DNA from: a virus
DNA length: 32,852 nucleotides
Direction: 5' to 3' (one strand)
IMG/VR virus record: IMGVR_UViG_3300025117_000176
Location: 1 to 32,852 of that record
Shown one piece after another: positions 12,055 through 25,303 of this stretch. Both the position numbers and the translations under genes were made by a program. Position 1 is the stretch's first letter; each line of letters starts with the position of its first letter. Under the pieces are notes generated by a model. The model did not search any database, was not told the origin of the DNA, and saw only the letters and a list, made by a program, of their open reading frames with translations.

Positions 12055-12074
12055 CGCCACGAGTTAAGCGTAAC

Positions 12075-12129: not shown

Positions 12130-12137
12130 CTGGCAAT

Positions 12138-12158
12138 TGATATGAATTTGCAATGTTA
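12138..12158. repeat. 21-bp intergenic element, copy A
   Basis: The 21 bases starting TGATATGAATTTGCAATGTT are identical to those at 14248-14268 and differ by two bases from a copy at 25274-25254 on the minus strand. This copy overlaps the stop codon of the 226-residue gene and has no -10-like sequence at the spacing seen in the other two. Confidence 0.75.
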
Positions 12159-12836
12159 AGCGCATTGCTCTATCACCCCGGCATGTTTTGTGCATACCGG
12201 GATAGGATGACCTACCACGGTTTCGGCCACCTTATCACACATCGCACACTTGACCGGCTTATCGCATGTTTCACACATGAGCGGTTCGACTTGCGCTATA
12301 AACGCACCGTCAAGCAAAGAAACAATTTCACCGTAACCCACCTTAGTATATCCTTCTGGATTTTCACAGGTGCAATACCAGTCATCCTTCCGGCCTGTGT
12401 CGCTCGCCCACCCCTTGCGCCACTCTACGCCGCACACACATTTGATGTGATACTCTGCCCGGTTGACGTGTTCATAAACCTTCCCACAGATGCAAACGAG
12501 AGTCTTGGTGTGGCGGTGACATTTGCAAGCGATTGGGTTGTCCTCGCTTGAGTAATGACATCCCCGGTGATCGTGCTGCATGGTGCTGTGAAAGCATTCC
12601 GGGCAAAGGCCAATTGCTTTGGCAACGGTAATACCAGCGGCGCCCAGGCACACGTCTTCTGGCGCCTCTTCTCGCGCCAAAACCGCCCTTATTTGCAGTT
12701 CCAACTTTTCGTTTTCGGCCTCCGCCTCAAGCAATTCCATTGTAGCTCTTTCGAGTTCGGCCAAGAGCCGGACGTTTTGGGCCTGCAACTCGATAACAGA
12801 GGCGGCGAGAGTTCGGATAATTTCTGTCTTTTTCAT
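12156..12836 (-). CDS. Coiled-coil protein with multiple zinc-knuckle motifs, unknown
   Basis: 226 residues from ATG at 12836 behind AAAGGGAG. Residues 1-55 are a continuous coiled coil (IRTLAASVIELQAQNVRLLAELERATMELLEAEAENEKLELQIRAVL). The rest is extremely rich in Cys and His: LCPECFH, HDHRGCHY, CKCHRH, CICGK, CVCG, CTCE, CETCDKPVKCAMCDK, CTKH. Several zinc sites are likely. The look is of a nucleic-acid or protein-binding adaptor. It is the last gene before the main control region. No named family. Confidence 0.7.
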   Translation of the reverse strand: MKKTEIIRTLAASVIELQAQNVRLLAELERATMELLEAEAENEKLELQIRAVLAREEAPEDVCLGAAGITVAKAIGLCPECFHSTMQHDHRGCHYSSEDNPIACKCHRHTKTLVCICGKVYEHVNRAEYHIKCVCGVEWRKGWASDTGRKDDWYCTCENPEGYTKVGYGEIVSLLDGAFIAQVEPLMCETCDKPVKCAMCDKVAETVVGHPIPVCTKHAGVIEQCA

Positions 12837-12892
12837 GGTGCGCTCCCTTTCGTTACAATCTTACCTGTTATTCTGCACGTTCACAGTTAATT

Positions 12893-13105
12893 CTACCCCA
12901 ACAATCTCTGACACGCAACCAACTCCCCGCCGCGCTTTTCCAGTTCCTCGCGCAGACTGTCAGGATAGGCCAGCGCGTCAGCTTCGCTCTCAAACGTCAT
13001 GCGGTACATTCCGCAAGTCTTGTACTTGCACAACATCACGCCTAAAACGCGGCCCGGTTCGGGGGCAACATCCCAAAAGACAACGGCGAAGGTGACGGTA
13101 ATCAT
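12893..13105 (-). CDS. 70-residue protein, paralogous to 26172-26399
   Basis: ATG at 13105 overlaps the previous stop (ATGA) and has GGAGG upstream. The C-terminal half (MYRMTFESEADALAYPDSLREELEKRGGELVACQRLL) aligns with VYRVTFPNQAALCAFPSAMREAIAANGGELILCEEI of the protein at 26172-26399, so the two are related copies of one small family. A beta strand plus helix plus GGEL-hC ending is visible. Function is unknown. Confidence 0.7.
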   Translation of the reverse strand: MITVTFAVVFWDVAPEPGRVLGVMLCKYKTCGMYRMTFESEADALAYPDSLREELEKRGGELVACQRLLG

Positions 13106-13497
13106 GATTTTCCTCCATTACGCCACAGGGTATAATTCCCTGTTACCACCGCGCGTATTCGCGCCCTCAGCACTACACTGGATTTGTTTTCGTCAATAAA
13201 CAGGCTTTCGAATTTCACAAGCCCTATCTCGTCAAATTCAATACGATCACAGTTTGTAATTTTTGACGGATCGCCGCATTCAATGTATCCAACCCTCAAG
13301 CCGTCAACGCTCTCGATATCAAAGACAAAAGCCATGTCCGGGAGTCGTCCGCTGGCAGCGATAATCCATTTTCCGGTTGGGAAGCCGTTGTCAATTTCTG
13401 CCTCAACCTTTTCGATCACCATGCTTGTGTAGATATTTGTGCCATAGGCTTGGTAGAAGACCGACTGGTGCTCATTATTCCATAATAAACTAATCAT
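13102..13497 (-). CDS. 131-residue hypothetical protein
   Basis: ATG at 13497 overlaps the upstream stop (ATGA) and follows GAGGAGG. The protein is mixed alpha/beta (NIYTSMVIEKVEAEIDNGFPTGKWIIAASGRLPDMAFVFDIESVDGLRVGYIECG ... VVLRARIRAVVTGNYTLWRNGG). No signal peptide, membrane span or catalytic motif is seen. It is translationally coupled to both neighbours in the accessory cluster. Confidence 0.65.
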   Translation of the reverse strand: MISLLWNNEHQSVFYQAYGTNIYTSMVIEKVEAEIDNGFPTGKWIIAASGRLPDMAFVFDIESVDGLRVGYIECGDPSKITNCDRIEFDEIGLVKFESLFIDENKSSVVLRARIRAVVTGNYTLWRNGGKS

Positions 13498-13766
13498 TTC
13501 TCATCCTCCTCTGGTAATTCTGGCAACTCAGTCCAGATGTCAAACATGCTGTCCGGCGTGCTGCTGAGCACGGTCAACAGCCACCACGAGTTATCCTTGT
13601 CGCTGAAGTATCGCGGCACAACTACGCCGGTTTCGGTGTTGCCTGTGATGTACCAGCCTGACGCGGCGGGGTGGGTGGCCTTTTCGTGCCAGTGAATTAC
13701 AAGGCGCTCGAATAGCTCTTGTAACTGGTCGTCTGGTAGGCGAATGGTAATATCACTGCTTGCCAC
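13494..13766 (-). CDS. 90-residue hypothetical protein
   Basis: GTG start at 13766, GGGAGGTG 7 bases upstream, overlapping nothing but lying 3 bases after the previous stop. Acidic protein (MASSDITIRLPDDQLQELFERLVIHWHEKATHPAASGWYITGN...) with a C-terminus ELPELPEEDEK. The first 30 residues look like a strand followed by an amphipathic helix. No family was recognised. Confidence 0.65.
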   Translation of the reverse strand: MASSDITIRLPDDQLQELFERLVIHWHEKATHPAASGWYITGNTETGVVVPRYFSDKDNSWWLLTVLSSTPDSMFDIWTELPELPEEDEK

Positions 13767-13769
13767 AGA

Positions 13770-14006
13770 TCACCTCCCGCTCCCGTTGCGCCTGAACTGC
13801 TTGCGGATGTCTGCCGTGGTGGGCACCATGCCAAGCATCCGCTCGATAGCGTCAAGCTCTGCCAGGATGGCGTCACGCATCAAGCGCAGGAAGGCGTCGC
13901 GTTCGTCAGTCTCAGAACTGATAAACAGCGCGTTGATATTCTTCTCGTTGTAACGCGGCCAGGGGGCAAGCGTTTCGCTCTTGTGTTGGGTGGGGTCATC
14001 GGTCAT
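13770..14006 (-). CDS. 78-residue hypothetical protein
   Basis: The start was set at ATG 14006 (MTDDPTQHKSETLAPWPRYNEK) because GGAG lies 9 bases upstream; a TTG eight codons earlier is less likely. The C-terminal half is helical (DERDAFLRLMRDAILAELDAIERMLG) and ends basic (RKQFRRNGSGR). It overlaps the preceding membrane-protein gene by 11 bases. Confidence 0.65.
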   Translation of the reverse strand: MTDDPTQHKSETLAPWPRYNEKNINALFISSETDERDAFLRLMRDAILAELDAIERMLGMVPTTADIRKQFRRNGSGR

Positions 14007-14229
14007 GGGGTTGCGCTCCAATATGCTCAATGATAAAAGCCGCCGCTACCAACGATGACGCGAGTCCGATGATAGCGGCGACAATCGCCAACAGTCCAAG
14101 CCCAGACATCAAGTCGCTGGAAAGCGCAAGCCCCACACCGATTATTGTAAGGGCAATCAAGCAAAATGCTATGCACAATCCGAGTTGCACAATCAAGGTA
14201 ATATCAGCGGCGTTAAATTTGTTTGTCAT
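13996..14229 (-). CDS. Small two-span membrane protein
   Basis: 77 residues from ATG at 14229 with GGGAG upstream. Two hydrophobic helices are visible: IVQLGLCIAFCLIALTIIGVGLAL (~13-36) and MSGLGLLAIVAAIIGLASSLVAAAFII (~41-67). It is the first gene of the minus-strand accessory cluster and diverges from the plus-strand gene at 14313. It could be holin-like or an inner-membrane accessory protein. No family can be named. Confidence 0.7.
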   Translation of the reverse strand: MTNKFNAADITLIVQLGLCIAFCLIALTIIGVGLALSSDLMSGLGLLAIVAAIIGLASSLVAAAFIIEHIGAQPHDR

Positions 14230-14247
14230 GTCACTGCGCTCCCTATC

Positions 14248-14291
14248 TGATATGAATTTGCAATGTTACAACGAGAAAATGGATGTATCAT
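14248..14291 (+). promoter_or_regulatory. Promoter with 21-bp element (copy B) for the plus-strand gene
   Basis: The 21-bp element covers 14248-14268, followed by TGTTAC (14264-14269), a 16-base spacer and -10-like TATCAT (14286-14291). The gene start is 21 bases further on. The same element, spacing, -10 type and start distance recur at 25274-25231 on the minus strand. The element is also 18 bases upstream of the minus-strand gene ending at 14229, so it may control both directions. Confidence 0.55.
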
Positions 14292-14312
14292 TAAGTTAAT
14301 CAGGAGATCAAA

Positions 14313-14714
14313 ATGGACGTCAAAACAATTATCATCAAGTACCAACTGGTCGAGATCGAAAAGAACGGGCACCAGGGCGTGCAGCCACTCAAGGGCAGCC
14401 CCACCGCCGCCGAAATTGAGTTTATTCGCAGCCACAAGGCCGAGATTATCACCATCCTGGATGCCAAGAAATTCAACCCAACTGGCCCTACCGCCGCCAC
14501 CGCCGCAATGGTCGCTTACAGAAAAGTTGCTAAGGCCGAAGCCGAGTACCGCCAGGCCGAGCGCAACGAAGAGAGCGCCCAGCACACCATCGCCGCACGC
14601 AATGCCTACGAGCAGGCCCTGAGTGATTGGCAGGCACAGTACCCCGAAGAGGCCGCCAAGTCTAGCAAAGTCCACTACAATGATGGTGCGACCAATAATC
14701 CCTGGAACCTCTAG
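14313..14714 (+). CDS. Lone plus-strand accessory protein, TubC_N-like N-terminus
   Basis: 133 residues from ATG at 14313, AGGAG 7 bases upstream. Residues ~8-52 (KYQLVEIEKNGHQGVQPLKGSPTAAEIEFIRSHKAEIITILD) resemble the small TubC_N-type docking fold with its hallmark HKAEII.hL ending, a unit also found at the ends of phage replication and accessory proteins. The remainder is a long charged helix (AAMVAYRKVAKAEAEYRQAERNEESAQHTIAARNAYEQALSDWQAQYPEEA). It is the only convincing plus-strand gene in the window and converges with the minor head gene, 5 bases apart. A regulatory or accessory function is likely but unproven. Confidence 0.75.
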   Translation: MDVKTIIIKYQLVEIEKNGHQGVQPLKGSPTAAEIEFIRSHKAEIITILDAKKFNPTGPTAATAAMVAYRKVAKAEAEYRQAERNEESAQHTIAARNAYEQALSDWQAQYPEEAAKSSKVHYNDGATNNPWNL

Positions 14715-14719
14715 TAATA

Positions 14720-16036
14720 TCATTTTCTTTTCGTCTCCTCGTATGTTGTCTCTATGGCTTCCGCATATGCCCGCCAGAACTTCCGGGCGTCTCTATTCAT
14801 TTGTTCTGGCGAATCCCCAAAGACACCCTCTCTATATCCTAGCATATCGGAAACATATTTGTCAGACCATTTGAATTTTGCTTGTGCCTGTTTCATGGCC
14901 TCGGCATGATTTCCCCATCCCTTCTCTGGTCTATTTATCGTGTATGTTCTGTATTTTCCAGTTACGGTTGTGGACGCGAGATTGGCGTCGGCGGCGGTGT
15001 CTATATCTTTGTCAGAAAAAGTCCATGTGTCAGAACCCAGGTCGGCAGACGGATGATTGTGTATCATGTGTGCGTCAACCACATCCTCTGCATTTATAGA
15101 AGATGTATCTACTTCGTGTTCATCTCCAGAAGAGACATCATATAATTGTTCACCGTCATCCGAGAAAATCAATATTCTCTCTGTGTCGGCAGAATAAAAG
15201 GACTCGTCCCCCGTCATAGAGAGAACCTTTCCAGCACCCCCACCCGGCCCGCTCCCTCCGATCTGCCCCGGTACGCCACTATGCCCAAAGTTACCACTCC
15301 CCGGCCCGCCCTCGCCTATCCTGCTGACGGTTACAGAACCACCTATCATAAACTCTACAAACGCCTGGCTCAATTCGCCCGCGCTCTCCCCGGCCCAATC
15401 CAGCGAGCCGTAACCGGCGAAGATGGCGCCGTCATCGTCAACAAGGTAATGCTGGCAATTCCACCCGCCGCAATCATAATTACGATTGCCCGCCTGCCCT
15501 GGTATCAACTCTTGCTCAACCCACCACTTCGCAGGCTTGCGCCGTCCTTTCAGGCTTTGGCACGTCTGGCAGCTTTCCGCGCCGTCATCACCATCGAACG
15601 TCAGGAACTTGTTCAGCGCGCCGCGCAGCTTGCCTTCTGAGTAGATACCGGGGATGGTGCTGGCATAGCTTACGGCGTGCGCAGCGGCAAAAGCTTCGCC
15701 CGCTTGAGGGGTGTAGTCGTCACTGTCGCGCAATGCTTTGGCGGATGTCCACAGGGTATCGGCAAAGCCCAATTCCGCCCCGATGCGTGCGTTCAGCCAG
15801 TCAACTTCATCTTCGGTAAGCGGATCGCCGTTACCGGCGTCTGCTTTGCCAGCGACAAAGGCCAGGGTGAAGGCGTCATTTACGGCGCGGTTGAAGGCAT
15901 TCTCAAACGTGGCAACGCTTCGGGTATCTTCCAGGTAGTCTACCAGCGCAACGTAGAGGCGGATCTCGTACTCGTTCTGAATGCCGCCAACGTCCTGGCC
16001 AGGGGTAAATTCGAGAAGTAATGAGACGTCACTCAT
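14720..16036 (-). CDS. MuF-type minor head protein with C-terminal JAB/MPN-like domain
   Basis: 438 residues; ATG at 16036 overlaps the preceding stop (ATGA). Residues 1-230 are a MuF/SPP1 gp7-like head morphogenesis domain with C156-x2-C159, C189-x4-C194-x-H196 (YDCGGWNCQHYLV) as the usual metal-binding end. Residues 243-268 are the Gly-rich linker GGPGSGNFGHSGVPGQIGG typical of MuF proteins that carry extra domains. The C-terminal domain (~270-438) contains ILIFSDDGEQLYDVSSG, then H326-N-H328-P-S and S341-x2-D344 (FSDKD), the arrangement of JAB/MPN metallopeptidase-like domains. In the particle it probably sits inside the head near the portal and could be injected with DNA. Whether the domain is catalytic is open; the His-His to Ser-Asp spacing is longer than in classic JAMM enzymes. 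Confidence 0.85.
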   Translation of the reverse strand: MSDVSLLLEFTPGQDVGGIQNEYEIRLYVALVDYLEDTRSVATFENAFNRAVNDAFTLAFVAGKADAGNGDPLTEDEVDWLNARIGAELGFADTLWTSAKALRDSDDYTPQAGEAFAAAHAVSYASTIPGIYSEGKLRGALNKFLTFDGDDGAESCQTCQSLKGRRKPAKWWVEQELIPGQAGNRNYDCGGWNCQHYLVDDDGAIFAGYGSLDWAGESAGELSQAFVEFMIGGSVTVSRIGEGGPGSGNFGHSGVPGQIGGSGPGGGAGKVLSMTGDESFYSADTERILIFSDDGEQLYDVSSGDEHEVDTSSINAEDVVDAHMIHNHPSADLGSDTWTFSDKDIDTAADANLASTTVTGKYRTYTINRPEKGWGNHAEAMKQAQAKFKWSDKYVSDMLGYREGVFGDSPEQMNRDARKFWRAYAEAIETTYEETKRK

Positions 16037-16227
16037 GGCTGTTTTGTTCCTGTCAATCTCTCGTACCGCTCAATCATGCGCCTGGCGTAGGCGGTCGCTT
16101 CAGTGGCGCGCTTGAAAAAGCGACGTGATATCCTGATACGTGCGGGCAGCCCATCCATCCGAATGGCGGGCACATAAAACTTGTTGAAGCGACGGTCAAC
16201 GATCTTGACGGGACGTAGGTCAATCAT
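16033..16227 (-). CDS. 64-residue basic protein
   Basis: ATG at 16227 with AAGGA upstream. Highly basic (MIDLRPVKIVDRRFNKFYVPAIRMDGLPARIRISRRFFKRATEATAYARRMIERYERLTGTK), a strand-rich half then a basic helix. The shape suggests nucleic-acid binding or AP2/integrase-arm-like folding; this is inference. Its stop overlaps the minor head protein start. Confidence 0.7.
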   Translation of the reverse strand: MIDLRPVKIVDRRFNKFYVPAIRMDGLPARIRISRRFFKRATEATAYARRMIERYERLTGTKQP

Positions 16228-16237
16228 GGCATTGTCC

Positions 16238-16621
16238 TTATCTGTCAGCTACTACCTGGACTCTGGCGACTTCGCTTAACGTGTCATTGCAAACAGTGAC
16301 GTGATAGCGGTCAACAGAGTAGAAGCCGGGCCACTGTCTGACAACTGGCTCCGGTGGGACGGTCGCATAATCGCCAGTGTAATACCAGACCTGGACAATC
16401 ATCGGGCGCGGCGGTAGGCCGTGCTGGAAGGTCTCGCACTTGCCCGGATCAATGGCGACGAATTGCGATACGTAGCGCGTGGCCTGAGTAGACGCAACCT
16501 CCGCCGAGGCCGCCCTCGCCTCATCAACAGACCACGCCGCGGCAAGTATGTACACACAGGCTACCAAGAAAGCGAACACCATGACAATAGTCAAGCCGAT
16601 GGGGATATTTCTATCGTTCAT
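16238..16621 (-). CDS. Single-span membrane protein
   Basis: 127 residues. Start placed at ATG 16621 (MNDRNIPIGLTIV) with GAGGAG 7 bases upstream. One hydrophobic helix at residues ~7-29 (PIGLTIVMVFAFLVACVYILAAA), then a soluble domain with CETFQHGLPPRPMIVQVWYYTGDYATVPPEPVVRQWPGFYSVDRYHVTVC containing two Cys that could pair outside the cytoplasm. It resembles a signal-anchored exported protein. Function is unknown. Confidence 0.7.
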   Translation of the reverse strand: MNDRNIPIGLTIVMVFAFLVACVYILAAAWSVDEARAASAEVASTQATRYVSQFVAIDPGKCETFQHGLPPRPMIVQVWYYTGDYATVPPEPVVRQWPGFYSVDRYHVTVCNDTLSEVARVQVVADR

Positions 16622-16641
16622 TCTGTCACTCCTCTTTCTGG

Positions 16642-16752
16642 TTATAAAGCAGTGAAAATTGCGGCAATACCGGCAATGCACCAGGCGGCAAGCAGAGCCA
16701 GGACTATGGCGAGAACAATGCCGGAAATGCGGGTATCTTTTTCGTTGCTCAT
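16642..16752 (-). CDS. 36-residue single-span membrane microprotein
   Basis: ATG at 16752, AGGAG 6 bases upstream, TAA at 16642. The protein is a short polar start (MSNEKDTRIS) followed by one hydrophobic helix (GIVLAIVLALLAAWCIAGIAAIFTAL). It is tucked between two other membrane-protein genes in the same direction with normal spacing, which supports real coding. Function is unknown. Confidence 0.65.
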   Translation of the reverse strand: MSNEKDTRISGIVLAIVLALLAAWCIAGIAAIFTAL

Positions 16753-16761
16753 TCTGTGCTC

Positions 16762-17007
16762 CTAGTCATCTATATCCGCCATAGCATTGGCGACCCGCTC
16801 AATGGCGCGCTCAAGGCCCACCCACACGGCGACAAGCGGGAACATGATGGTACACAGTACCCATGCAATCCCATTGGCTACCAAATCCAGCGCCTTCTCG
16901 TATAGCGTCAACTCAACCGGCGGGTCAGGCTCCACCCCCAACGCGTCAGCAAAATCCGCCATTGCCCTATTCATTTTGTCGAACGGCGAGTCCTCTCGAA
17001 TTGCCAT
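16762..17007 (-). CDS. 81-residue membrane protein
   Basis: ATG at 17007, AAGGGAG upstream. A polar N-terminus is followed by one long hydrophobic region (ALDLVANGIAWVLCTIMFPLVAVWVGL, ~43-69) and a short helix. It starts a run of three adjacent small membrane-protein genes just after the portal gene. No family was recognised. Confidence 0.7.
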   Translation of the reverse strand: MAIREDSPFDKMNRAMADFADALGVEPDPPVELTLYEKALDLVANGIAWVLCTIMFPLVAVWVGLERAIERVANAMADIDD

Positions 17008-17036
17008 GATATGCTCCCTTCTCTAAACTATGTTCC

Positions 17037-18692
17037 CTATTCCGCCAGCTTCAACACCCGCTCGCGCAGCGCGGCAATCCGCTTGAGCGCCTTTGCATTG
17101 GGCGGCGGCGCGGTCTCTCCCGCCGTGGCTGGCGTTGTCTGGGCTGGCGCTGGTTCTGCGTTGAAATAGGCTTCGTCTTCCGGTGCAATCTCGTTTACAT
17201 CTTCATCGCCATAGGCTTCAAGAAGCATACGGTTGAGATAGTTGACGGTTCGCTTTGCTTCTGGCGTGGGCATGAGATTGGCGGATACCATCGCGCTGAC
17301 CTGGGCCATGTAGGTTGTGACGTTGCCTGTCAGGGCAGGGATGTCAGTCTCAAGCAGGGTGTCAATGTTGACCTCCGCCCCAAAGTCTGTGTAATTCGTG
17401 CCGCCCCATTCGTTGCTGGCCCAAAGCACGATCCGCACCATGCGCTTGAATTGCGCCGACCAAAACTGCTGGTAGCGGTCGAAGTTTCGGTATTGTGGTT
17501 GATCCATACTTGTCGCGCTTGCAAGCCTATACGTTCCCACGCCAAGCCAGTGGGGGAACAGCCCACCCGACAGGCCCACCATCTGGAGTAGCGCCTCGCC
17601 GTCAGTCTTGGCATCCCCCGCCCCGCTGCCCAACGGGAGCCGCGTCAGATCCGCCGATTGGTTCTCAAGCCAGGTGCTACCCGGCGCGGCGGCGGGGTTG
17701 GTGTCGCTGTAATTCGTGCTGCTCAAGGCGCTTTGCAACTTGGCGCGCACGGACTCAACTGCCCGGCTGCCGCCTTGTACCTTGAGCTTATTGACGTACA
17801 TTGCCACCGCTGCAGCCACGGCCACCCGGTTCTCCCTGAACTGCTTGTGTGCCCTGGCCCAGGCCGTGCCGCTGGACATGATCGGCCAGCCACGATTGCC
17901 CGACTTGCGATTGTGTGAGATGTGCAAGACACAAACGGATGTGCTGTCATCCATCTCGTCGGCGCGGGTGATCCTGGCAGTCTTGATAATCTCGTCCATC
18001 TCGTCGCTGTAATCATCGGCAGACATCAAGGCGCTGGCGTCGGGGTAGTATGCCTCTTGCGTTCTGCCGTTCGTCTCAGTCCATTGGCGCTTGTAAAACA
18101 ACGGCACGCGCTTGTCATTCGGCGCGGTGATGACTTCTGACACCTCAGACGAGTCAAAGGTGCGCACCGTCACCTTGCCGTCAAGCTTCGATACGTAGAA
18201 GGCCAGGAACGTCTCACCGTCCACCAACACCGTGTCGCTCATTTCGTGCTGGTTATCGGCCGCCAGGATAGGTTCATTCCTGTCTGCCGTCCAAAACTCT
18301 TGCCAGGTTTCCGCGGCGGCCTCATCGTTCGGCGTGATGATGACGTTCTGCCCGAAGCCGAAGTTGGTCCAGGTGTTGATGATCCAACTTGCCAGCGGAT
18401 CGTAACGCCACAGGCGGCGGCACTCATTCATCACGCGGATGCGCTCGGCATCGGTGTCTTGCCCGTAGGTAGAGACGGCGCCAACCTTCTCCCATTCAAG
18501 CTGTGTCACCAAATCCTGAAGGATGGCCGAGTCATATTCGTGCAACTGGCGCAGCAGCTCCTCTGGCGGCAATTCGTAAGGCCCGTCAAGGTAAGCGCCC
18601 CACAGGGCGGCCATGCCAGCCTTGAGCTTGTCCTGCTCGGCGCGCAGGTCTTTGCCGCCAAGTGCTTCTGCTAATCGTGTGCGTAGTGTCAT
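17037..18692 (-). CDS. Portal protein
   Basis: 551 residues from ATG at 18692, AGGAG 9 bases upstream. The size, the position after terminase and before the MuF gene, and the sequence fit a dodecameric portal: conserved early region with RRLWRYDPLASWIINTWTNFGFGQNV, a wing region (TVRTFDSSEVSEVITAPNDKRVPLFYKR), and the core with GLSGGLFPHWLGVGTYRLASATSMDQPQYRNFDRYQQFWSAQFKRMVR that matches the stem/crown junction of SPP1- and HK97-like portals. The C-terminal tail is low in complexity and Ala/Pro-rich. It is the DNA entry channel and the head-tail junction. Confidence 0.9.
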   Translation of the reverse strand: MTLRTRLAEALGGKDLRAEQDKLKAGMAALWGAYLDGPYELPPEELLRQLHEYDSAILQDLVTQLEWEKVGAVSTYGQDTDAERIRVMNECRRLWRYDPLASWIINTWTNFGFGQNVIITPNDEAAAETWQEFWTADRNEPILAADNQHEMSDTVLVDGETFLAFYVSKLDGKVTVRTFDSSEVSEVITAPNDKRVPLFYKRQWTETNGRTQEAYYPDASALMSADDYSDEMDEIIKTARITRADEMDDSTSVCVLHISHNRKSGNRGWPIMSSGTAWARAHKQFRENRVAVAAAVAMYVNKLKVQGGSRAVESVRAKLQSALSSTNYSDTNPAAAPGSTWLENQSADLTRLPLGSGAGDAKTDGEALLQMVGLSGGLFPHWLGVGTYRLASATSMDQPQYRNFDRYQQFWSAQFKRMVRIVLWASNEWGGTNYTDFGAEVNIDTLLETDIPALTGNVTTYMAQVSAMVSANLMPTPEAKRTVNYLNRMLLEAYGDEDVNEIAPEDEAYFNAEPAPAQTTPATAGETAPPPNAKALKRIAALRERVLKLAE

Positions 18693-18698
18693 TTTTGA

Positions 18699-18932
18699 TT
18701 ACTCCTGTTTTCTGCCTTGCTTCAACTCATAATAACGATGGGCCTCGCTAATGACGTGCTTTTTTTCGGCTTCCAAATACATCACGCAAAACTCGTGCAC
18801 AATCTCAGCGCAATGTGGTGATAGTCTTTTGATGATTGACTCCATAAACCCAATGTCATGGCATAACATTGCATCTTCGCAAATCCAATATTGTCTGCTG
18901 AGCGCCCCATCTTCAATGGTTATGTCTGTCAT
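18699..18932 (-). CDS. 77-residue hypothetical protein
   Basis: Start set at ATG 18932 (MTDITIEDGALSRQYWICED) with GGAG about 9 bases upstream. The rest is mainly helical with several Cys (C17, C24, C42 region HCAEIVHEFCVMYLEAEKKHVI). It lies just before the portal gene. No family was recognised. Confidence 0.65.
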   Translation of the reverse strand: MTDITIEDGALSRQYWICEDAMLCHDIGFMESIIKRLSPHCAEIVHEFCVMYLEAEKKHVISEAHRYYELKQGRKQE

Positions 18933-18933
18933 T

Positions 18934-19311
18934 TTACACACTCCATATACACTCTAGCTCGCCGTTGGGAAGATAGCGATGTTGTGTAAACTGGTTACAT
19001 TTTTTGCACCATGTAACGAATAGTATTTCCTCCCGCTCTGGCGTATCGCACCCGTACATCGGCTTGATATACGCGGCCATCGCTTCGACTAGTTTACCTT
19101 CGACTTCCAGGCGCTCTTTCAGTCGCTTTATTTCTGCCTGGGCCTCAACAAGGTCGGGCCGATCAACGCGAAAGCCAAGCCGCTCCCATCGCAACTTGCG
19201 CGCCTCTGCCAGGGCGACATCTCTTTGGTTGCGGTAGTCGCGCGCCATGTCAATAGCTTCATCGCGTTCTTTGCGTGCATCGCACTGTGAACAAAGGTTA
19301 TTGGTTGCCAT
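18934..19311 (-). CDS. Coiled-coil protein with N- and C-terminal cysteine pairs
   Basis: 125 residues from ATG at 19311 behind GGGTGAGAG. CSQC at residues 7-10, a long coiled coil (RDYRNQRDVALAEARKLRWERLG... LVEAQAEIKRLKERLEVEGKLVEAMA) and a C-terminal zinc-knuckle-like half TWCKKCNQFTQHRYLPNGELECIW. A dimeric zinc-binding adaptor is a reasonable reading. Function is unknown. Confidence 0.7.
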   Translation of the reverse strand: MATNNLCSQCDARKERDEAIDMARDYRNQRDVALAEARKLRWERLGFRVDRPDLVEAQAEIKRLKERLEVEGKLVEAMAAYIKPMYGCDTPEREEILFVTWCKKCNQFTQHRYLPNGELECIWSV

Positions 19312-19314
19312 CTC

Positions 19315-19722
19315 TCACCCCGGTTCAATCGCGCTGTCTATCCACATATCAATGTGACACCTGAATGCAAGAAACTGGCCTATCTGCTCTAAGTTGAAGT
19401 GGCATATGTCACACAATACATATTCTTTTCCATTGATCTTGTCGCGATAGGGCATATCTGCGCGCTTGTTGCACGCATCGCATTTCAATTCTTTGGGGCC
19501 GCTATCGTTCCCTGCTAGATACATCGTGGCGACCGCCGCCAGTACATAATCCAGGGATGCTTCTTCTAGCAACAGCATACTGTGTGAGAATTTACCACAA
19601 ACAAAATCTATCAAAGTGCGCTCCCCCTTGCTTGATAGTTTCACCTCCCATTCGTAAGTGTGCGTCTTTTCAATAAGATACTGAAGCATCTTGTTGACGT
19701 GCTTTAGTTTGGTCATTTTCAT
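19315..19722 (-). CDS. Zinc-ribbon protein between terminase and portal
   Basis: 135 residues from ATG at 19722, GGGAG upstream. The first ~75 residues are alpha/beta (MLQYLIEKTHTYEWEVKLSSKGERTLIDFVCGKFSHSMLLL). The second half has a clean two-pair ribbon, CDACNKRADMPYRDKINGKEYVLCDIC. It ends directly before the gene at 18934-19311, with 3 bases between. Function is unknown. Confidence 0.7.
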   Translation of the reverse strand: MKMTKLKHVNKMLQYLIEKTHTYEWEVKLSSKGERTLIDFVCGKFSHSMLLLEEASLDYVLAAVATMYLAGNDSGPKELKCDACNKRADMPYRDKINGKEYVLCDICHFNLEQIGQFLAFRCHIDMWIDSAIEPG

Positions 19723-19738
19723 TTCATTGCTCCCTAGT

Positions 19739-21019
19739 CTAATAGTCCGGGCCGATCTTATAGTCGTTGAACATTACTCGTTGCATTGTCACTTCTTGCA
19801 GAAACAGCCACGTTGCAAGGTAGCCAACGCTGTCAATACTGTGATCGTTTTCCTTGACGGGCGCTTCTTTGTTATCCTGCCAAACGTAACTTTCAAACTC
19901 ATTGATCGTATTGACACAGGATGGGTCAATGGTCATGCGCGGGCGTCCATCCCCTTGCACCTTCAACAATTCTTGGATAAATGCTATCCTGTCCAGCACC
20001 CGCCCCTTTGCACCTTTTGCCTGAATGCCCTCGTTTTGCAGGTCGGCAATCAGGCCGGCGGCAGCAGCGTCAACGGCCACGGCGGCAATCCGATGTTGCT
20101 TGTGGTAATCCTCGATCACCTTGACGACGGCAGACTGTAGCGCGCCGGTCTGGTAGAACTCGCTTTCGACGTGCCAACGCATGTCAGCGTCAAGGCCAAT
20201 CAACAGCACAACAGCCGGGTTGGTGTAGCCCTCATCAACTGCCAGGCACCAGAAGTGCATCTCTGCCGGGTTGCGCGCCATGACGTGAATATCACGATCA
20301 AACGCCTCGAATACCGCGCCCTCTGCTTTGGCCCACTCCCCCAGGTATAACCGCTTGTATCGCATCCCGGTTAACTTACTCAGCCTGTCAAGCGTGCGGG
20401 TGCCCTGTTCGGTCAGGGTGCCGTCACGGTTGTAAAGAGTGGGGTTGTCTTGGTGGACTGACTTTATCAGTCTCAGCGCACCTGCTGCTGCCCGCTGCAA
20501 AATCCAGTGACGGCTAATGGATGGGTTGGCATCACCAAACAATTGCGGATATGGCACGACGGCAGAGCGGCCCGTAGTGCGGGTGGTCAACAACTCCCAG
20601 TCGTTCAGTATCAATTCCTCTGCCTGGTTTACGTAAATGCCATCTCGTTCAGATGACAACACTTTATCTGGGTTATCCAGCCCGCCAATCCATACCACTG
20701 ACCCATTGGCGTAAAGGTATCGCTCCGGAGTTTTACCGCCGTATGGTTCAACGGGTGCGCCAGCAATGACGCGCTGGAAAGTTTGCAGTACAGAACCGTA
20801 GACGCTCTTTTGTGTTTTGCGCACGATGGCAAGCTGTGCGCCGGGGTATTTACTGCAAAGTAAATGGACTTTCCAGCAAGCCGAAATGGTTTTGCCAGTT
20901 TCAGCCGGCCCGGCAATAATCACCTCCGGTTCGTGCGAATACATCAAGTCCAGTGCCCCGCCATATGGGGCATAGTTTGCATCCTTGATATTTTCGCCAG
21001 CCATGATGGTGTAGCCCAT
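19739..21019 (-). CDS. terL: Terminase large subunit
   Basis: 426 residues, ATG at 21019 with AAGG close upstream; ATG at 21004 (MAGEN) is an alternative. ATPase: Walker A GPAETGKT (37-44), then RERDGIYVNQAEEL (124-136 region) in the Walker B position with the AEE acidic pair, and TTRTTGR (145-151) as a coupling motif. Nuclease: acidic residues D262 (LAVDEGYTNPAV), D317 (VAVDAAAAGLIADL) and D396 (NDHSIDSVGYLA) fit the RNase H-like metal site. The enzyme pumps DNA into the prohead through the portal and cuts it to length. Position before portal and after the small subunit supports this. Confidence 0.93.
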   Translation of the reverse strand: MGYTIMAGENIKDANYAPYGGALDLMYSHEPEVIIAGPAETGKTISACWKVHLLCSKYPGAQLAIVRKTQKSVYGSVLQTFQRVIAGAPVEPYGGKTPERYLYANGSVVWIGGLDNPDKVLSSERDGIYVNQAEELILNDWELLTTRTTGRSAVVPYPQLFGDANPSISRHWILQRAAAGALRLIKSVHQDNPTLYNRDGTLTEQGTRTLDRLSKLTGMRYKRLYLGEWAKAEGAVFEAFDRDIHVMARNPAEMHFWCLAVDEGYTNPAVVLLIGLDADMRWHVESEFYQTGALQSAVVKVIEDYHKQHRIAAVAVDAAAAGLIADLQNEGIQAKGAKGRVLDRIAFIQELLKVQGDGRPRMTIDPSCVNTINEFESYVWQDNKEAPVKENDHSIDSVGYLATWLFLQEVTMQRVMFNDYKIGPDY

Positions 21020-21024
21020 GCGCC

Positions 21025-21519
21025 TTATACCTTATCGGTATCAATTCCAATTCTGATAATCTTGAGCGGCTCGCCCCCGCTGGTGACGTCCTGCTTTTGC
21101 ACCCGCCCCCCCGTCTCTTTTGCGATGTCATCCAACACGCCGCGATACTGCGTTATCTCTGCCGCGTTGAACTCCTCGTAGTCAACAATCTCTGCAATGT
21201 CACCACTGCCAACGCCTTTCACCTGGTCTGTCCAAATGAAGCCGCCGAATAAATCCTTCTCCATCAAGGCGGCCAAGATAGAGAGCTTGAATACCCGATG
21301 TTCTTTGAGTGCGTAACCAGAAACAAGCGCGTTCTTTTCGTCAATTGACTTGATTGCGTCAATATCAATCTTGCGCGCCTTGCGATAGTAATCAACCTGC
21401 TGACGAGAAACGCTAAACGGCGGATCGAAACTAGCCGCCCGAACGTTTATTTCGTCCGATTGAACGCCTTCTACTATCCAGGTTAGTACCGCTTCCTTCT
21501 GGCTCTTTTTTAGTCTCAT
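21025..21519 (-). CDS. terS: Terminase small subunit
   Basis: 164 residues from ATG at 21519, weak ribosome binding site. N-terminal helix-turn-helix-like segment (LKKSQKEAVLTWIVEGVQSDEINVRAASFDPPFSVSRQQVDYYRKARKI), then a helical oligomerisation core (ALKEHRVFKLSILAALMEKDLFGG), and a C-terminal segment RGVLDDIAKETGGRVQKQDV. Position 5 bases before the large subunit and DNA-binding start fit the small terminase that recognises the packaging site. The gene overlaps the preceding one by 89 bases. Confidence 0.8.
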   Translation of the reverse strand: MRLKKSQKEAVLTWIVEGVQSDEINVRAASFDPPFSVSRQQVDYYRKARKIDIDAIKSIDEKNALVSGYALKEHRVFKLSILAALMEKDLFGGFIWTDQVKGVGSGDIAEIVDYEEFNAAEITQYRGVLDDIAKETGGRVQKQDVTSGGEPLKIIRIGIDTDKV

Positions 21520-21715
21520 TGTCCAAATCCGTCAAAGTTTCCTGTTCTTTTGGTTCTGCCGTCACTTCCAGCACCGCGCCCCACCGCTTGCACTCCATCA
21601 ACTGAGCGGCTTGCATGATTGCATCCTCTCCCAAATCCAACGTCACGCGCAAGCCGCCATCAGCCAGGCTTTGCACCTTCGCAACCGCGGCGGTGAACTT
21701 AATGGGGTCGGTCAC
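21431..21715 (-). CDS. 94-residue hypothetical protein overlapping terS
   Basis: Start set at GTG 21715 (VTDPIKFTAAVAKVQSLADGGLRVTLDLGEDAIMQAAQLMECKRWGAVLEVTAEP) because the sequence from here reads as a compact beta-strand/helix protein common in phage small-gene regions; the upstream extension looks unlike protein. The C-terminus (KKEPEGSGTNLDSRRRSIGRNKRSGG) is basic and lies in the 89-base overlap with terS. Function is unknown. Confidence 0.65.
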   Translation of the reverse strand: MTDPIKFTAAVAKVQSLADGGLRVTLDLGEDAIMQAAQLMECKRWGAVLEVTAEPKEQETLTDLDNETKKEPEGSGTNLDSRRRSIGRNKRSGG

Positions 21716-21878
21716 GGCGCAACATCCACCCCGCCCATTCGGGCGCGCGAAGCCAGAAGCCAAGCGCAACGGGAACATAGCGCTCCCCGCTCGGATACTG
21801 TTTGAATGCCGGGCGCAACCCGCCCCAACGCTCGATCAAAAAGAAACGGCATTTGTAGATTGTTTCTGGCGATCCCAT
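21699..21878 (-). CDS. 59-residue hypothetical protein
   Basis: ATG at 21878, AAAGGAG 7 bases upstream. MGSPETIYKCRFFLIERWGGLRPAFKQYPSGERYVPVALGFWLRAPEWAGWMLRRDRPH is Trp/Arg-rich. It overlaps the next gene by 17 bases. No family was recognised. Confidence 0.65.
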   Translation of the reverse strand: MGSPETIYKCRFFLIERWGGLRPAFKQYPSGERYVPVALGFWLRAPEWAGWMLRRDRPH

Positions 21879-21889
21879 TTTATGCTCCT

Positions 21890-22099
21890 TTACGGATGAC
21901 ATACCCACCCCATTCTCTTGATGTAACCTTCGGCTATTTTCTTTTCGATATCATCCCACTCTGCTTGTGAGAAGCCGATATCTACAGTGTTGTTTGCCTT
22001 ATCATTGCTCACCACGAGCTCGATATGCACAAGGCCATCTGCGTATTCGTGGTAGACGTGAAAACTGTCGTTATGGTAGATTGTGCCTCTGGTGCTCAT
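21890..22099 (-). CDS. 69-residue hypothetical protein
   Basis: ATG at 22099, AAGGGTG upstream. The sequence (MSTRGTIYHNDSFHVYHEYADGLVHIELVVSNDKANNTVDIGFSQAEWDDIEKKIAEGYIKRMGW) reads as a beta sheet followed by one helix, a compact small domain. The opening MSTRGTIYxxxxxHVYxE recurs in phage-encoded small proteins. Function is unknown. Confidence 0.65.
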   Translation of the reverse strand: MSTRGTIYHNDSFHVYHEYADGLVHIELVVSNDKANNTVDIGFSQAEWDDIEKKIAEGYIKRMGWVCHP

Positions 22100-22103
22100 C
22101 TCA

Positions 22104-22388
22104 TCACCCTTCCCTACCTTTTATGTCTTTCGGTATAATCACCGGCACATCCCCGCCCGAAATTGTCACGGTGCAATTCGGGCAGTTGCACCCCGAAACC
22201 CACGGCGCGTTTACCTTGCCGCAACGGGGGCAAATCCAGCCCGTTGGCGAAAATGATTGCTTGTTGCATTTACAAATCCGATCTTCTATGTTGCCAATCG
22301 GGTCAAAGTAGCAATACGGCTTTCCGCATATTGGGCAATAGTTATTGCCGATGTTGTATGCCATTGGGCCACTTGTGCTATCGCTCAT
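22104..22388 (-). CDS. Double zinc-ribbon protein
   Basis: 94 residues; ATG at 22388 overlaps the previous stop (ATGA), with AGGAAGG upstream. Cys pairs: CPICGKPYC, ICKCNK, CPRCGK, CNCPNC. Two ribbons are separated by NIEDRICKCNKQSFSPTGW. The last 20 residues are a beta strand and basic tail (VPVIIPKDIKGREG). It could bind nucleic acid or partner proteins. Function is unknown. Confidence 0.7.
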   Translation of the reverse strand: MSDSTSGPMAYNIGNNYCPICGKPYCYFDPIGNIEDRICKCNKQSFSPTGWICPRCGKVNAPWVSGCNCPNCTVTISGGDVPVIIPKDIKGREG

Positions 22389-22594
22389 TTTGTGCCTTCC
22401 TCCCACGCATCCTGTGCCTCTAAAAACTCCGCGCCCGCTTCATCGAACACAAGGCAGGCATCTTTCACCGCCTGTGTAAGCGCCTTGCATTGCTCGATGA
22501 AGCGCCTATCGTGCGCGCGGACTTCTTCGGGTACTAACCATTTAGCGCCATTCTTGACAAGTTGCTCAATGACTGCTTGCGGATTATCCATCAT
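22385..22594 (-). CDS. 69-residue helical protein
   Basis: ATG at 22594 overlaps the previous stop (ATGA), GAGG upstream. MMDNPQAVIEQLVKNGAKWLVPEEVRAHDRRFIEQCKALTQAVKDACLVFDEAGAEFLEAQDAWEEG is a helical, acidic protein with no motif. Coupled with both neighbours. Confidence 0.6.
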   Translation of the reverse strand: MMDNPQAVIEQLVKNGAKWLVPEEVRAHDRRFIEQCKALTQAVKDACLVFDEAGAEFLEAQDAWEEGTK

Positions 22595-22788
22595 GCCATC
22601 CTCGTATCCGTATCTTCAATTCGTCTGACGGATTCAGCAATTCCTTTGGCACAGTCTGCGCAAATGTAAACACATCCCCGGTGCGGAAGCTCACAAACAG
22701 CAACGCGCTTTATGACACGGCACATGTCACACGCGCCAAACTTCACGACCATACATGTCTCACTTACAAATACATCGTTCTTTCTCAT
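22591..22788 (-). CDS. Small zinc-ribbon protein
   Basis: 65 residues from ATG at 22788, GGAGGGG upstream. CDMC (20-23) and CADC, with the stretch CELPHRGCVYICADC, form a likely single zinc site. Helical C-terminus (AKGIAESVRRIEDTD). Function is unknown. Confidence 0.65.
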   Translation of the reverse strand: MRKNDVFVSETCMVVKFGACDMCRVIKRVAVCELPHRGCVYICADCAKGIAESVRRIEDTDTRMA

Positions 22789-22791
22789 TCT

Positions 22792-23553
22792 CTACCCCTC
22801 CCTACTCACAATCGGCAGGTAAACATGGTACTCTTCGGGCGGCGGCGTCGCGTCACCCATGAACCATTCCCACATTTCGCCCGCGCTGCCGTAAAAGAAG
22901 TTTTCGTCACAGCCCAATTCGGGCACGCCGGGGATAGTGCCCGTCACGCCGTACTGGTGCGCTTCAATGTGTGCGCCTGTCGGGGCCAATGGGGTAAGCG
23001 TGCCGTAATGGGCCGTCCAAAAGCCGTAGTTGCCAATCCAGGTAGGCACGGGCCGCAAGAATGCCCAATAATATTTCGAGCTGTAAATGACAGGCGTCTT
23101 ACCCGTCAGGCGTTGGATTTCGTTCAGGCAAGCCAGCACCTTTGCGCTGTCATGATTATGGCTTATCTCTACATCCAACACGTATAAATTGCACCCGCCC
23201 CCAACCGTGTTGACAAAGTGGGCCGCCTGGGCTACAGGGTCAACGTTATCCCTGTAGAAGTGATAAGCGCCCCACCCCCGCCCCCGTGCGATGCTCCCTG
23301 CCTTGTTTGCGGCGAATTGGCTGTCAACAAACCAGTCGCTCTCGCTGGCCTTGAAAATGGACGCCATAAAATAGCGCGCCGCCGTGCTCCAATCAATCTC
23401 GCCGCTCCAATGAGAGAAGTCAGGGAAGTATGTTTTTACCGTGCTATCGGTGAGAAGAATCAGATCCGCCCGCACGCGGCGGGTGGCAATGGCGGGCCGC
23501 TGTGGCAGGGGCCTGCCGTCAGCGTCAAGGCTGGCGCGGGGGGAGAGTGTCAC
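22792..23553 (-). CDS. GH25 lysozyme (endolysin)
   Basis: 253 residues; GTG at 23553 with GAGGTG 5 bases upstream, overlapping the previous stop by one base. Residues ~40-230 match glycoside hydrolase family 25 muramidases: D45 in FPDFSHW, the ASIFKASES strand, GAYHFYR (96-101), the catalytic pair D127-x-E129 in LYVLDVEIS, and CDENFF near the end. It would cleave the N-acetylmuramic acid to N-acetylglucosamine bond of peptidoglycan. A ~35-residue N-terminal extension has no signal peptide. The C-terminal tail (PPPEEYHVYLPIVSREG) looks like the VYLPxV endings of exported Chloroflexota proteins. The neighbouring holin-like gene supports a lysis role. Confidence 0.88.
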   Translation of the reverse strand: MTLSPRASLDADGRPLPQRPAIATRRVRADLILLTDSTVKTYFPDFSHWSGEIDWSTAARYFMASIFKASESDWFVDSQFAANKAGSIARGRGWGAYHFYRDNVDPVAQAAHFVNTVGGGCNLYVLDVEISHNHDSAKVLACLNEIQRLTGKTPVIYSSKYYWAFLRPVPTWIGNYGFWTAHYGTLTPLAPTGAHIEAHQYGVTGTIPGVPELGCDENFFYGSAGEMWEWFMGDATPPPEEYHVYLPIVSREG

Positions 23554-23903
23554 TATTGCACCTCGTAAATATCAAACGGCCCGTCAGTCTGTTCGGCCTG
23601 GATAACAATATACTTTTCGTTATTCATTCCGCCCGACGCGGCAGTAGTCACAACGCCAGCAGATGAGACAATCTTGTCTTCGTGAAACCACGGGTTAACT
23701 GGCTCTTCCCAATCATCCCATGCCCCGGCAGTTTTCAAAAACTCTTTCATAAATTCGTCACTTTCCTCGGGCGTCATGGGGATGATATGCGCTCCCGCAT
23801 TCCACGATTCGCGCATACGCAAGCGCCCATCAAGGCTGCAGCGTTTAGACTTTGGCATTATCCCGTCTATCTCTATAGTTGTGGGCGTCACTGATTTTTC
23901 CAT
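23553..23903 (-). CDS. 116-residue hypothetical protein before the endolysin
   Basis: Start set at ATG 23903 (MEKSVTPTTIEIDGIMPKSKRCSLDGRLRMRESWNAGAHIIPMTPEESDEF) with GGAGAGG ~7 bases upstream. It has an acidic helical middle (DEFMKEFLKTAGAWDDWEEP) and a C-terminal beta strand pair (KYIVIQAEQTDGPFDIYEVQ). No family was recognised. Confidence 0.65.
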   Translation of the reverse strand: MEKSVTPTTIEIDGIMPKSKRCSLDGRLRMRESWNAGAHIIPMTPEESDEFMKEFLKTAGAWDDWEEPVNPWFHEDKIVSSAGVVTTAASGGMNNEKYIVIQAEQTDGPFDIYEVQ

Positions 23904-24105
23904 ACCGTTCCTCTCCTCGCTGAACGATCCGATATGTGTATGTTGATGTTTCGCACCCCGTTGCATCCGATGCGAAGGCCAGCGTTTTTATCCACCACGA
24001 CCCGCAATTGTCGCAATGATAGCGCGCGTCATTCCCGCTAGTGTATAACATTCCCCTCCCACAGTTTGGACACCGAATAGAGGCATCGGTTGCGGAATAC
24101 ATCAT
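23845..24105 (-). CDS. Zinc-ribbon protein within the lysis cassette
   Basis: 86 residues; ATG at 24105 overlaps the holin-like stop (ATGA). Two Cys pairs in CPNCGRGMLYTSGNDARYHCDNCG form one ribbon. It overlaps the next gene by about 59 bases, an unusually long overlap that suggests compression. Function is unknown. Confidence 0.6.
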   Translation of the reverse strand: MMYSATDASIRCPNCGRGMLYTSGNDARYHCDNCGSWWIKTLAFASDATGCETSTYTYRIVQRGEERYGKISDAHNYRDRRDNAKV

Positions 24106-24380
24106 TCCACCGGCGTATCAATATCTTCAACGTCCAACTCCACCGCGGGCGTATCAAACACCACCTCTACCGCCGCGCCCTTCTGGGCAGCATCTTCGTA
24201 TGCAGTCGTGCCCGCATAGGTGAACGCAGCCAGGAAATAGATCACCGCTTGCCACTCCGGGGGGATGTCCAGCCCCGACACGGCAAGGGCAGAGAAGAAC
24301 AGCGCCCAAAAGCGCGTTGAGCGGAACAGGCGAGTAACCCACGAAAAGTTATCTTGCATAAATTCCTTGAAATTATCCAT
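24102..24380 (-). CDS. Putative holin / small inner-membrane lysis protein
   Basis: 92 residues from ATG at 24380 (MDNFKEFMQDNFSWVTRLFRS), GGAG ~9 bases upstream. Two hydrophobic stretches: FWALFFSALAVSGLDI (~24-39) and WQAVIYFLAAFTYAGTTAY (~44-62), then an acidic C-terminal tail. Two spans with a short turn and a location two genes before the endolysin suggest a holin that makes the membrane pore. This is inferred from context; no diagnostic motif is seen. It is the first gene after the terminator/promoter at 24428-24468. Confidence 0.6.
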   Translation of the reverse strand: MDNFKEFMQDNFSWVTRLFRSTRFWALFFSALAVSGLDIPPEWQAVIYFLAAFTYAGTTAYEDAAQKGAAVEVVFDTPAVELDVEDIDTPVE

Positions 24381-24427
24381 TTGTATCAATCTCCATTGAC
24401 AGAAATATTGTTTTGTGCTACCCATCT

Positions 24428-24456
24428 ATTATAACAAAAAACGGGCCGTTGCACAA
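24428..24456 (-). promoter_or_regulatory. Promoter for the lysis/packaging genes, embedded in a terminator
   Basis: Minus strand: a perfect -10 TATAAT at 24433-24428, a 17-base spacer, and TTGTGC at 24456-24451 as a weak -35. The -35 lies in the loop of the terminator hairpin and the -10 directly follows its T-run. Transcription would start near 24421 and enter the holin-like gene. Confidence 0.6.
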
Positions 24457-24468
24457 CTGCGGCCCGTT
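24435..24468 (-). terminator. Rho-independent terminator
   Basis: On the minus strand, ACGGGCCG (24467-24460) pairs with CGGCCCGT (24448-24441) across an 11-base loop, followed by a run of six T. It ends the gene group that stops at 24493. Confidence 0.85.
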
Positions 24469-24492
24469 CTCGAATAATCTCGTATGCGATTT

Positions 24493-24699
24493 CTATCGAA
24501 TGGTGAATTTCTTGACCTCGGTCTCCCCGATGACACTCTTCCCGTCACCATCGATATCGACCCGCATGATGTGGATTGTCCAGCCTGACCCAAATTCGTG
24601 CCGGGCCTGCGCTGCCAGATCATTGATAGATGACGCGTGCCCGACATCCGTTGATGCGCCCTGCTCGTTTCCCGCCCATGCGTAGTAGTGGTTTTTCAT
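24493..24699 (-). CDS. 68-residue hypothetical protein
   Basis: Start set at ATG 24699 (MKNHYYAWAGNEQGASTDVGHASSINDLAAQARHEFGSGWTIHIMRVDIDGDGKSVIGETEVKKFTIR), with AAAGGAG 9 bases upstream; the upstream extension includes the poly-A stretch and is not protein-like. One helix and a beta hairpin are visible; the stretch EFGSGWTIHIMRV is compact. Last gene before the terminator. No family was recognised. Confidence 0.65.
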   Translation of the reverse strand: MKNHYYAWAGNEQGASTDVGHASSINDLAAQARHEFGSGWTIHIMRVDIDGDGKSVIGETEVKKFTIR

Positions 24700-24730
24700 C
24701 TCTCTCATCTCCTTTTTTTTGGTCGTGTTT

Positions 24731-25210
24731 TTATGCACTGCAATCGCCGTAGCAATGTGAGTGACACTTGCGGCAGTAACCATTCTCGCCGTGCCGGGGT
24801 TCGGTTTCGACGTAGGCATTGGCTTCGGCCCGCACTGTCACCGCCTCAATCTCTGTCTGCTCTTCCGTTTTCCCAATCTCAGCATCAAGTTCGCCAATCA
24901 TCGCCATTGCAAGATCGTACAACTTCTTCCCGACATAAGCATCACCAACGCGAGCATGTGCACCGTCCGGATATTTGCCGCTGTATTTATCTTGCAGTGC
25001 GAAAAACGCGAACCCACCGGGCTTGCCTGAAACCTTGATTGTCTTGCCGCTGTTCTTCAGGGTGATTTTGACATCGTAGTTCTCGTAAACTTCGCGCCCT
25101 GTCTTGATGTTATATCCATCGGAGTAGCTAACTTTGTCGCTGACTTCGCGGGTTAACTTGATTTCGATGATTGAGTTTTCGGTTTGCTGCGTCCTGGTTG
25201 CTGTAGTCAT
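24731..25210 (-). CDS. 159-residue accessory protein under a 21-bp-element promoter
   Basis: Start at ATG 25210 (MTTATRTQQTENSIIEIKLTREVSDK), TCAGGAGAT upstream. A beta-rich half (NYDVKITLKNSGKTIKVSGKPGGFAFFALQDKY) is followed by a helix (KKLYDLAMAMIGELDAEIGKTEEQTEIEAVTVRAE) and a C-terminal Cys/His tail (GYCRKCHSHCYGDCSA) that could hold a metal. The promoter layout equals that of the plus-strand gene at 14313. Function is unknown. Confidence 0.7.
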   Translation of the reverse strand: MTTATRTQQTENSIIEIKLTREVSDKVSYSDGYNIKTGREVYENYDVKITLKNSGKTIKVSGKPGGFAFFALQDKYSGKYPDGAHARVGDAYVGKKLYDLAMAMIGELDAEIGKTEEQTEIEAVTVRAEANAYVETEPRHGENGYCRKCHSHCYGDCSA

Positions 25211-25230
25211 GTTCGTTATCTCCTGACTTA

Positions 25231-25274
25231 ATAATACCACTTATCCCCGCTGTTAACATTGCAATATCATATCA
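25231..25274 (-). promoter_or_regulatory. Promoter with 21-bp element (copy C)
   Basis: The element (25274-25254) differs from the other copies at two adjacent positions. TGTTAA at 25258-25253, 16 bases, then -10 TATTAT at 25236-25231; the start codon is 20 bases on. Layout equals 14248-14291. Confidence 0.55.
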
Positions 25275-25303
25275 AATCAGGCCCGTTCGATTCCTTTCAC
25301 TGC

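Follow-up and report, generated by a model that had tools for sequence, protein, structure and literature searches.

At the late promoters of phage Mu, the site of the activator C is common to a few promoters and lies beside or over a non-consensus -35 (PMC4461284). The element considered here, a 21-base sequence present three times in IMG/VR virus record IMGVR_UViG_3300025117_000176, is similar to the Mu system in having one regulator site at a few promoters, a non-consensus -35 and a link with late genes. It differs in that a C homologue was not recognised among the proteins scanned (a part of the open reading frames, ORFs); the likeness is one of description, activation here being proposed. 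The window, i.e. the whole stretch analysed, is the whole virus record of 32,852 bases (GC 0.56), with terminase, portal, capsid and GH25 lysozyme genes on the minus strand. Our preferred explanation, held with moderate confidence on the strength of sequence comparison, is that a single transcription regulator, recognising a specific sequence and most likely acting as an activator, binds the element and works at a small group of phage promoters. The finding is ordinary in kind, the proposed working being like that of activator-dependent phage promoters of the Mu C type.

Other described systems resemble the locus in part. Promoters activated by lambda CII carry TTGC-N6-TTGC around the -35; they likewise combine an activator site in the -35 region with a good -10, but copies 2 and 3 of the element are without a second TTGC 10 bases to either side. 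The CtrA box is TTAA-N7-TTAA, a pattern that is not seen in the element. The use by phages of host regulators, e.g. through CtrA sites (PMC9437464), is similar in that a regulator from outside the phage could own the site. Cluster A mycobacteriophages have more than 20 asymmetric 13-bp operators or stoperators, some of them at promoters (PMC9283540); like the element, these are short asymmetric intergenic sites within one phage, but here there are three 21-bp sites in 32.9 kb (the record may be incomplete), a repressor was not recognised among the scanned proteins and, whereas the stoperators are oriented with transcription, copy 1 is opposed in orientation to the minus-strand genes that lie to either side of it. 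SAS and ESAS in cluster K are also phage-specific conserved sequences ahead of a gene set; they are tied to the translation start (PMC3203893), whereas the element lies upstream of the -10, with 44 and 43 bases between its end and the ATG. The 17-bp repeats of cluster O, with over 30 copies, many intergenic and most not at promoters (PMC4351075), are phage-specific as well, and a segment between two of them is present or absent among genomes, but they are palindromic, whereas the element has no dyad above that of shuffled letters. By their defining features none of the CII sites, stoperators, SAS/ESAS and cluster O repeats fits, and no direct precedent was found among the literature matches listed.

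The element, TGATATGAATTTGCAATGTTA, is exact over 21 bases on the plus strand at 12138-12158 and 14248-14268, and copy 3, on the minus strand at 25274-25254, differs from these at two adjacent bases (AT/TA). The coordinates, letters, 21-base identity and two differences in the third copy given in the initial annotation were all confirmed. The copies, and the promoters, genes and gaps that go with them, are as follows.

12138-12158, plus strand: element copy 1; its terminal TTA is the stop codon of the ORF at 12156-12836 (minus strand), and it lies upstream of candidate minus-strand promoters
14248-14268, plus strand: element copy 2, in the 83-bp gap between the ORF at 13996-14229 (minus strand) and the ORF at 14313-14714 (plus strand)
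25254-25274, minus strand: element copy 3, with two changes
14264-14291, plus strand: putative promoter core at copy 2, TGTTAC-16-TATCAT, then TAAGT and CAGGAGAT (Shine-Dalgarno, SD)
25231-25258, minus strand: putative promoter core at copy 3, TGTTAA-16-TATTAT, with TGg before the -10, then TAAGT and CAGGAGAT
14313-14714, plus strand: ORF headed by copy 2, 133 amino acids, no family match; structure model mostly helical, of low confidence
24731-25210, minus strand: ORF headed by copy 3, 159 amino acids, with C-terminal GYCRKCHSHCYGDC, a conserved C-rich end; relatives in loci L004 and L086
11918-12155: AT-rich gap with copy 1, GC 0.46
14230-14312: AT-rich gap with copy 2, GC 0.36
25211-25377: AT-rich gap with copy 3, GC 0.44

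The repeat is real and beyond chance. Its 21 bases make it the longest exact repeat in the window on either strand, whereas the longest simulated repeats (100 Markov runs for each model) reached a maximum of 17 at order-1 and 19 at order-3, and at order-5 a repeat of 21 or more arose in 1/100 simulations; no match to the element with 3 or fewer mismatches arose in 100 dinucleotide shuffles. At the same tolerance, the full 32,852-base record has only these three copies. Non-coding sequence, computed from a hand-made ORF list, makes up about 4.2% of 2699-32836, and the probability that three random 21-mers would all be mostly non-coding is about 3e-5; copy 1 is intergenic except for 3 bases, because it overlaps the stop codon of the ORF at 12156-12836. 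The AT-rich non-coding gaps of at least 80 bp number three, each with one copy. Gaps of this length without a copy (3650-3906, 16682-16761 and 21779-21889) have GC values of 0.67, 0.54 and 0.53, and the shorter AT-rich gaps at 12837-12892 and 24700-24730 are likewise without one.

Copies 2 and 3 stand in the same layout. At copy 2, TGTTAC (14264-14269) is followed after 16 bases by TATCAT (14286-14291) and after a further 21 bases by the ATG at 14313; at copy 3, TGTTAA (25258-25253) is followed after 16 bases by TATTAT (25236-25231) and after 20 bases by the ATG at 25210, such that the pattern first proposed for these two copies, TGTTA(A/C), 16 bases, TAT(C/T)AT and about 20 bases to an ATG, is borne out. 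The GTG start at 25240 given by the ORF lister falls inside the copy 3 promoter. Identity between the two copies is 6/20 upstream, 19/21 in the element, 5/17 in the spacer and 10/11 in the -10 block; the last value, at the same offset, would be reached by random pairs with a probability of 3.5e-5 and by AT-rich pairs with one of 1.1e-3, and TAT[ACGT]ATTAAG occurs in the window at these two promoters only. Because the spacer is at chance level between two kept blocks, selection has probably acted on both blocks, at a fixed distance. The element spans about -50 to -30 at both copies; the -35 hexamers match TTGACA at 1/6 and 2/6 positions and the -10 hexamers match TATAAT at 5/6. The combination of a very poor -35 with a good -10 fits an activator-dependent promoter, as does the presence, in two promoters, of a conserved site over or abutting the -35 at the same offset from the -10. 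The initial proposal of a promoter or an activator/operator site is partly supported overall: a regulator site is the best reading, given the poor -35, the constant -10/SD spacing and the diverged spacer, and it is plausible that the element coordinates distant genes.

In the mechanism that we propose, the element at copies 2 and 3 would stand in place of a usable -35 hexamer, and the bound protein would bring RNA polymerase to the good -10 (TATCAT or TATTAT), leading to transcription of the plus-strand ORF at 14313 from copy 2 and of the minus-strand unit starting at 25210 from copy 3; the target of copy 1 would be a promoter on the minus strand, at about 12101-12136, that precedes the head-gene block. 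An activator is more likely than a repressor. Protein binding, activation, the service of the minus strand by copy 1 and the use of one protein by all three copies are points that we infer.

Several results weigh against this mechanism. The exact element is absent from other viral contigs in a viral contig collection and, within 3 mismatches, from 51 related records (G001 and 50 others, i.e. the records of 49 of 80 terminase loci, plus L086). The dyad symmetry of the element is no better than that of shuffled letters (P 0.47-0.88), and an internal direct repeat, TTGNNATG at 11-bp spacing, was rejected as not above shuffles (P 0.12-0.78); the usual signature of a dimer site is therefore missing. 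Among the proteins scanned, Pfam, PHROGs and NCBIfam named no helix-turn-helix protein. Copy 1 has the opposite orientation to its proposed minus-strand promoter and is centred near -54, not -40, and it may serve no promoter at all.

Absence in relatives says little, because the relatives are distant, the best terminase identity among them being 62%. A 23-mer search allowing up to 6 mismatches in parts of 81 related loci gave three matches, all at 6 mismatches, and a pattern for the promoter layout had four matches at 5 mismatches. The motif search of genome and relatives, named at the outset as a check on the element, revealed no further copies and no conservation, two of the outcomes set beforehand as refuting the idea, with no close relative among those compared. 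A looser form, TATGANNTTGCAATGTTA, was found in 36 stretches of viral contigs, with one copy each and, by eye, 0/36 in the -10 layout; we regard these as background. Distant blastn searches with the promoter stretches gave only 25-base matches at E 0.7 in phages, the copy 2 stretch had no blastn matches in plasmids, and Rfam returned nothing at gathering scores. Repeats of 15 or more bases in the relatives are mostly coding, tandem or terminal among the matches listed (for record G028, 25 of 108 listed), and no comparable AT-rich intergenic repeat was present among them. Record G028 (locus L123 at its start, L124 at its end) has a direct repeat of at least about 40 bp at its two ends and is thus probably complete.

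The copy 3 gene has homologues in L004 (45% protein identity) and L086 (39% over the C-terminal 87 amino acids), both with TTGACA-17-TATACT at the same place. In L004 a perfect palindrome, ATAACCTA-ACGA-TAGGTTAT, fills the -35/-10 spacer at 9947-9975; L086 has a perfect spacer palindrome at 1541-1569, AACCCAA-CCCC-TTGGGTT. The two palindromes differ in sequence, and both are unrelated to the element. L004 also has the SD stretch of the window, GGAGATAAC. That the homologues keep a promoter with a perfect -35 implies that the copy 3 gene is promoter-headed and that the element here replaces that -35; the gene thus appears to keep its promoter while the control sequence differs between phages.

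The L004 and L086 promoters, consensus in sequence and with a palindrome in the spacer, have the look of a repressor-controlled gene, and the element overlaps the -35 position. Both observations favour a repressor operator of the immunity repressor or Cro type, in which a protein over -50 to -30 would shut the promoters and copy 1 would block the cluster end or the head-block promoter; asymmetric phage repressor sites do exist, as exemplified by the cluster A stoperators (PMC9283540). We consider this alternative possible, but doubtful. Without help the promoters at copies 2 and 3 would be weak, given how poor their -35 is, an integrase or repressor was not recognised among the proteins scanned, and the L004 palindrome occurs once in its record, such that no regulon is seen even there.

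The surroundings of copy 1 bear on a second alternative, as well as on the role proposed for this copy under activation. The features concerned are these.

12159-14247: accessory cluster of six small minus-strand ORFs, GC 0.520, with copies 1 and 2 on its two sides as exact direct repeats
12101-12129, minus strand: candidate promoter TTGCAA-17-TACACT, with TGn before the -10; a consensus match only, score 9 with TG counted as one
12136-12109, minus strand: alternative candidate promoter TTGCCA-16-AATTAT; a consensus match only
12029-12055, minus strand: strong intrinsic terminator in the head-block leader, 12-bp stem, TTTTTAT tail
11935-11976, minus strand: another strong intrinsic terminator, with a 19-bp stem and CTTTTT tail, immediately preceding the SD of the gene that starts at 11917

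On the second alternative, copies 1 and 2 would be the ends of a six-ORF cluster gained, or able to be lost, by recombination, with copy 1 a relic and not a working site. The copies form a perfect direct repeat, one on each side of the cluster and 2,110 bp apart, an arrangement compatible with past recombination at copy 1, and the last ORF of the cluster ends on a stop codon contributed by this copy. The place also appears to be variable, since the syntenic relative L127 has unrelated genes in the interval from MuF to protease. Among cluster O mycobacteriophages, one genome carries a segment, bounded by two repeats, that four others lack; according to the same paper, few if any repeats take part in rearrangements (PMC4351075). 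Such cassette exchange is nevertheless unlikely to be the explanation: nothing comparable is flanked by copy 3, the flanks of copies 1 and 2 share no more sequence (5/20 and 1/17), searches for relatives of two neighbouring ORFs (the last one in the cluster and the gene after it) gave none, no relative with an empty site was found, and the conservation of the -10 is left unexplained. It is compatible with a regulator site, and both can hold together.

The observation that copy 1 has no -10 holds in the copy's own orientation. Its designation as an operator at the end of the accessory cluster is, by contrast, incomplete, since copy 1 also lies upstream of minus-strand candidate promoters and is an exact direct repeat of copy 2. 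On the minus strand it precedes TTGCAA-17-TACACT by 8 bases and TTGCCA-16-AATTAT by 1 base; two plus-strand promoter matches and another minus-strand match, all of equal score, lie in the same stretch. A minus-strand look-alike of the element (12146-12124, before TTGCAA-17-TACACT) has 8 mismatches and was rejected, there being 7 such matches in the window. A candidate minus-strand transcript from near copy 1 would cross both terminators into the head-gene block; the 185-nt leader has a folding z of -7.0. The tandem strong terminators at 11935-12055 (minus strand), before the first head-block gene, are a possible antitermination or stoichiometry device. It is conceivable, though we consider it improbable, that one putative phage activator drives the lysozyme/terminase/portal unit via copy 3 and the head block via copy 1, so that the late programme would be gated twice, by activation and then by antitermination or tuned read-through at the two leader terminators. 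At 12075-12089, which coincides with the start predicted for the candidate minus-strand promoter by copy 1, TGAAAATGATTATCA is one mismatch away from the Fur-type 7-1-7 box; when as many as 3 mismatches are allowed, this pattern has 3 matches in the window versus 0.68 expected.

A further reading is that the 21-mer and the -10 together make up a complete promoter, recognised by a sigma factor or RNA polymerase that is alternative or phage-coded. The long conserved upstream block, the non-standard -35 and the fixed 16-base spacing would suit such a promoter, but 21 conserved bases exceed a sigma -35 element, copy 1 is without a -10, and a sigma factor or polymerase was not recognised among the proteins scanned; we consider this reading quite improbable. 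Chance or recent neutral duplication is very improbable indeed, since, although there are three copies only and the order-5 model does occasionally yield so long a repeat, all three lie in the few non-coding gaps, their flanks have diverged and the -10 block is kept.

The genes that the proposed activator would serve are as yet without a family. Neither headed protein has a Pfam, PHROGs or NCBIfam match, they are unrelated to each other, and the 14313 protein shows no relationship with L086 either. Their structure models have mean predicted local distance difference test (pLDDT) values of 64.7 and 65.7, and a search with the second model (65.7) gave no viral fold at E 0.001 or better. The 14313 ORF is alone among its neighbours on the plus strand. 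Beyond the copy 3 ORF the minus strand carries small ORFs, then the GH25 lysozyme, terminase and portal genes; a terminator scan of this strand from the copy 3 ORF to 14720 gave short-stemmed candidates only, and we infer one transcript from the copy 3 ORF through portal. In L086 (1615-2238) the conserved C-rich end of the copy 3 protein is attached to a different, longer N-terminal part, so this end may be a mobile domain. An imperfect direct repeat, GAATGAAAAGTATTCGGCTCAATCA / GAGCGAAAAGTGTTCGGCGGCTCAATCA, lies at 25304-25328 and 25337-25364, a short way upstream of copy 3.

Elsewhere in the window, the head protein encoded at 14720-16036 (minus strand), which from its position we presume to be MuF-like, has a long C-terminal extension containing HNHP...SxxD, without a Pfam, PHROGs or NCBIfam match; this motif is reminiscent of JAMM/MPN peptidases. 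The genes at 8001-8598 and 8625-9237 (minus strand) are tandem duplicates with 71-73% DNA identity. Terminase relatives in genomes, from three phyla, have 37-39% identity, and the capsid matches 2 Methanoculleus virus records at 27.6%.

That short shared sites occur at the promoters of unrelated phage genes is a general lesson already known. If the regulator-site explanation is true, sequence alone would have given part of the control map of an uncultured phage group, and the regulator could be sought with an exact 21-bp bait. The presence of the element here and of palindromes at the two homologues suggests that the control of one gene family has been swapped between phages, with the gene staying promoter-headed.

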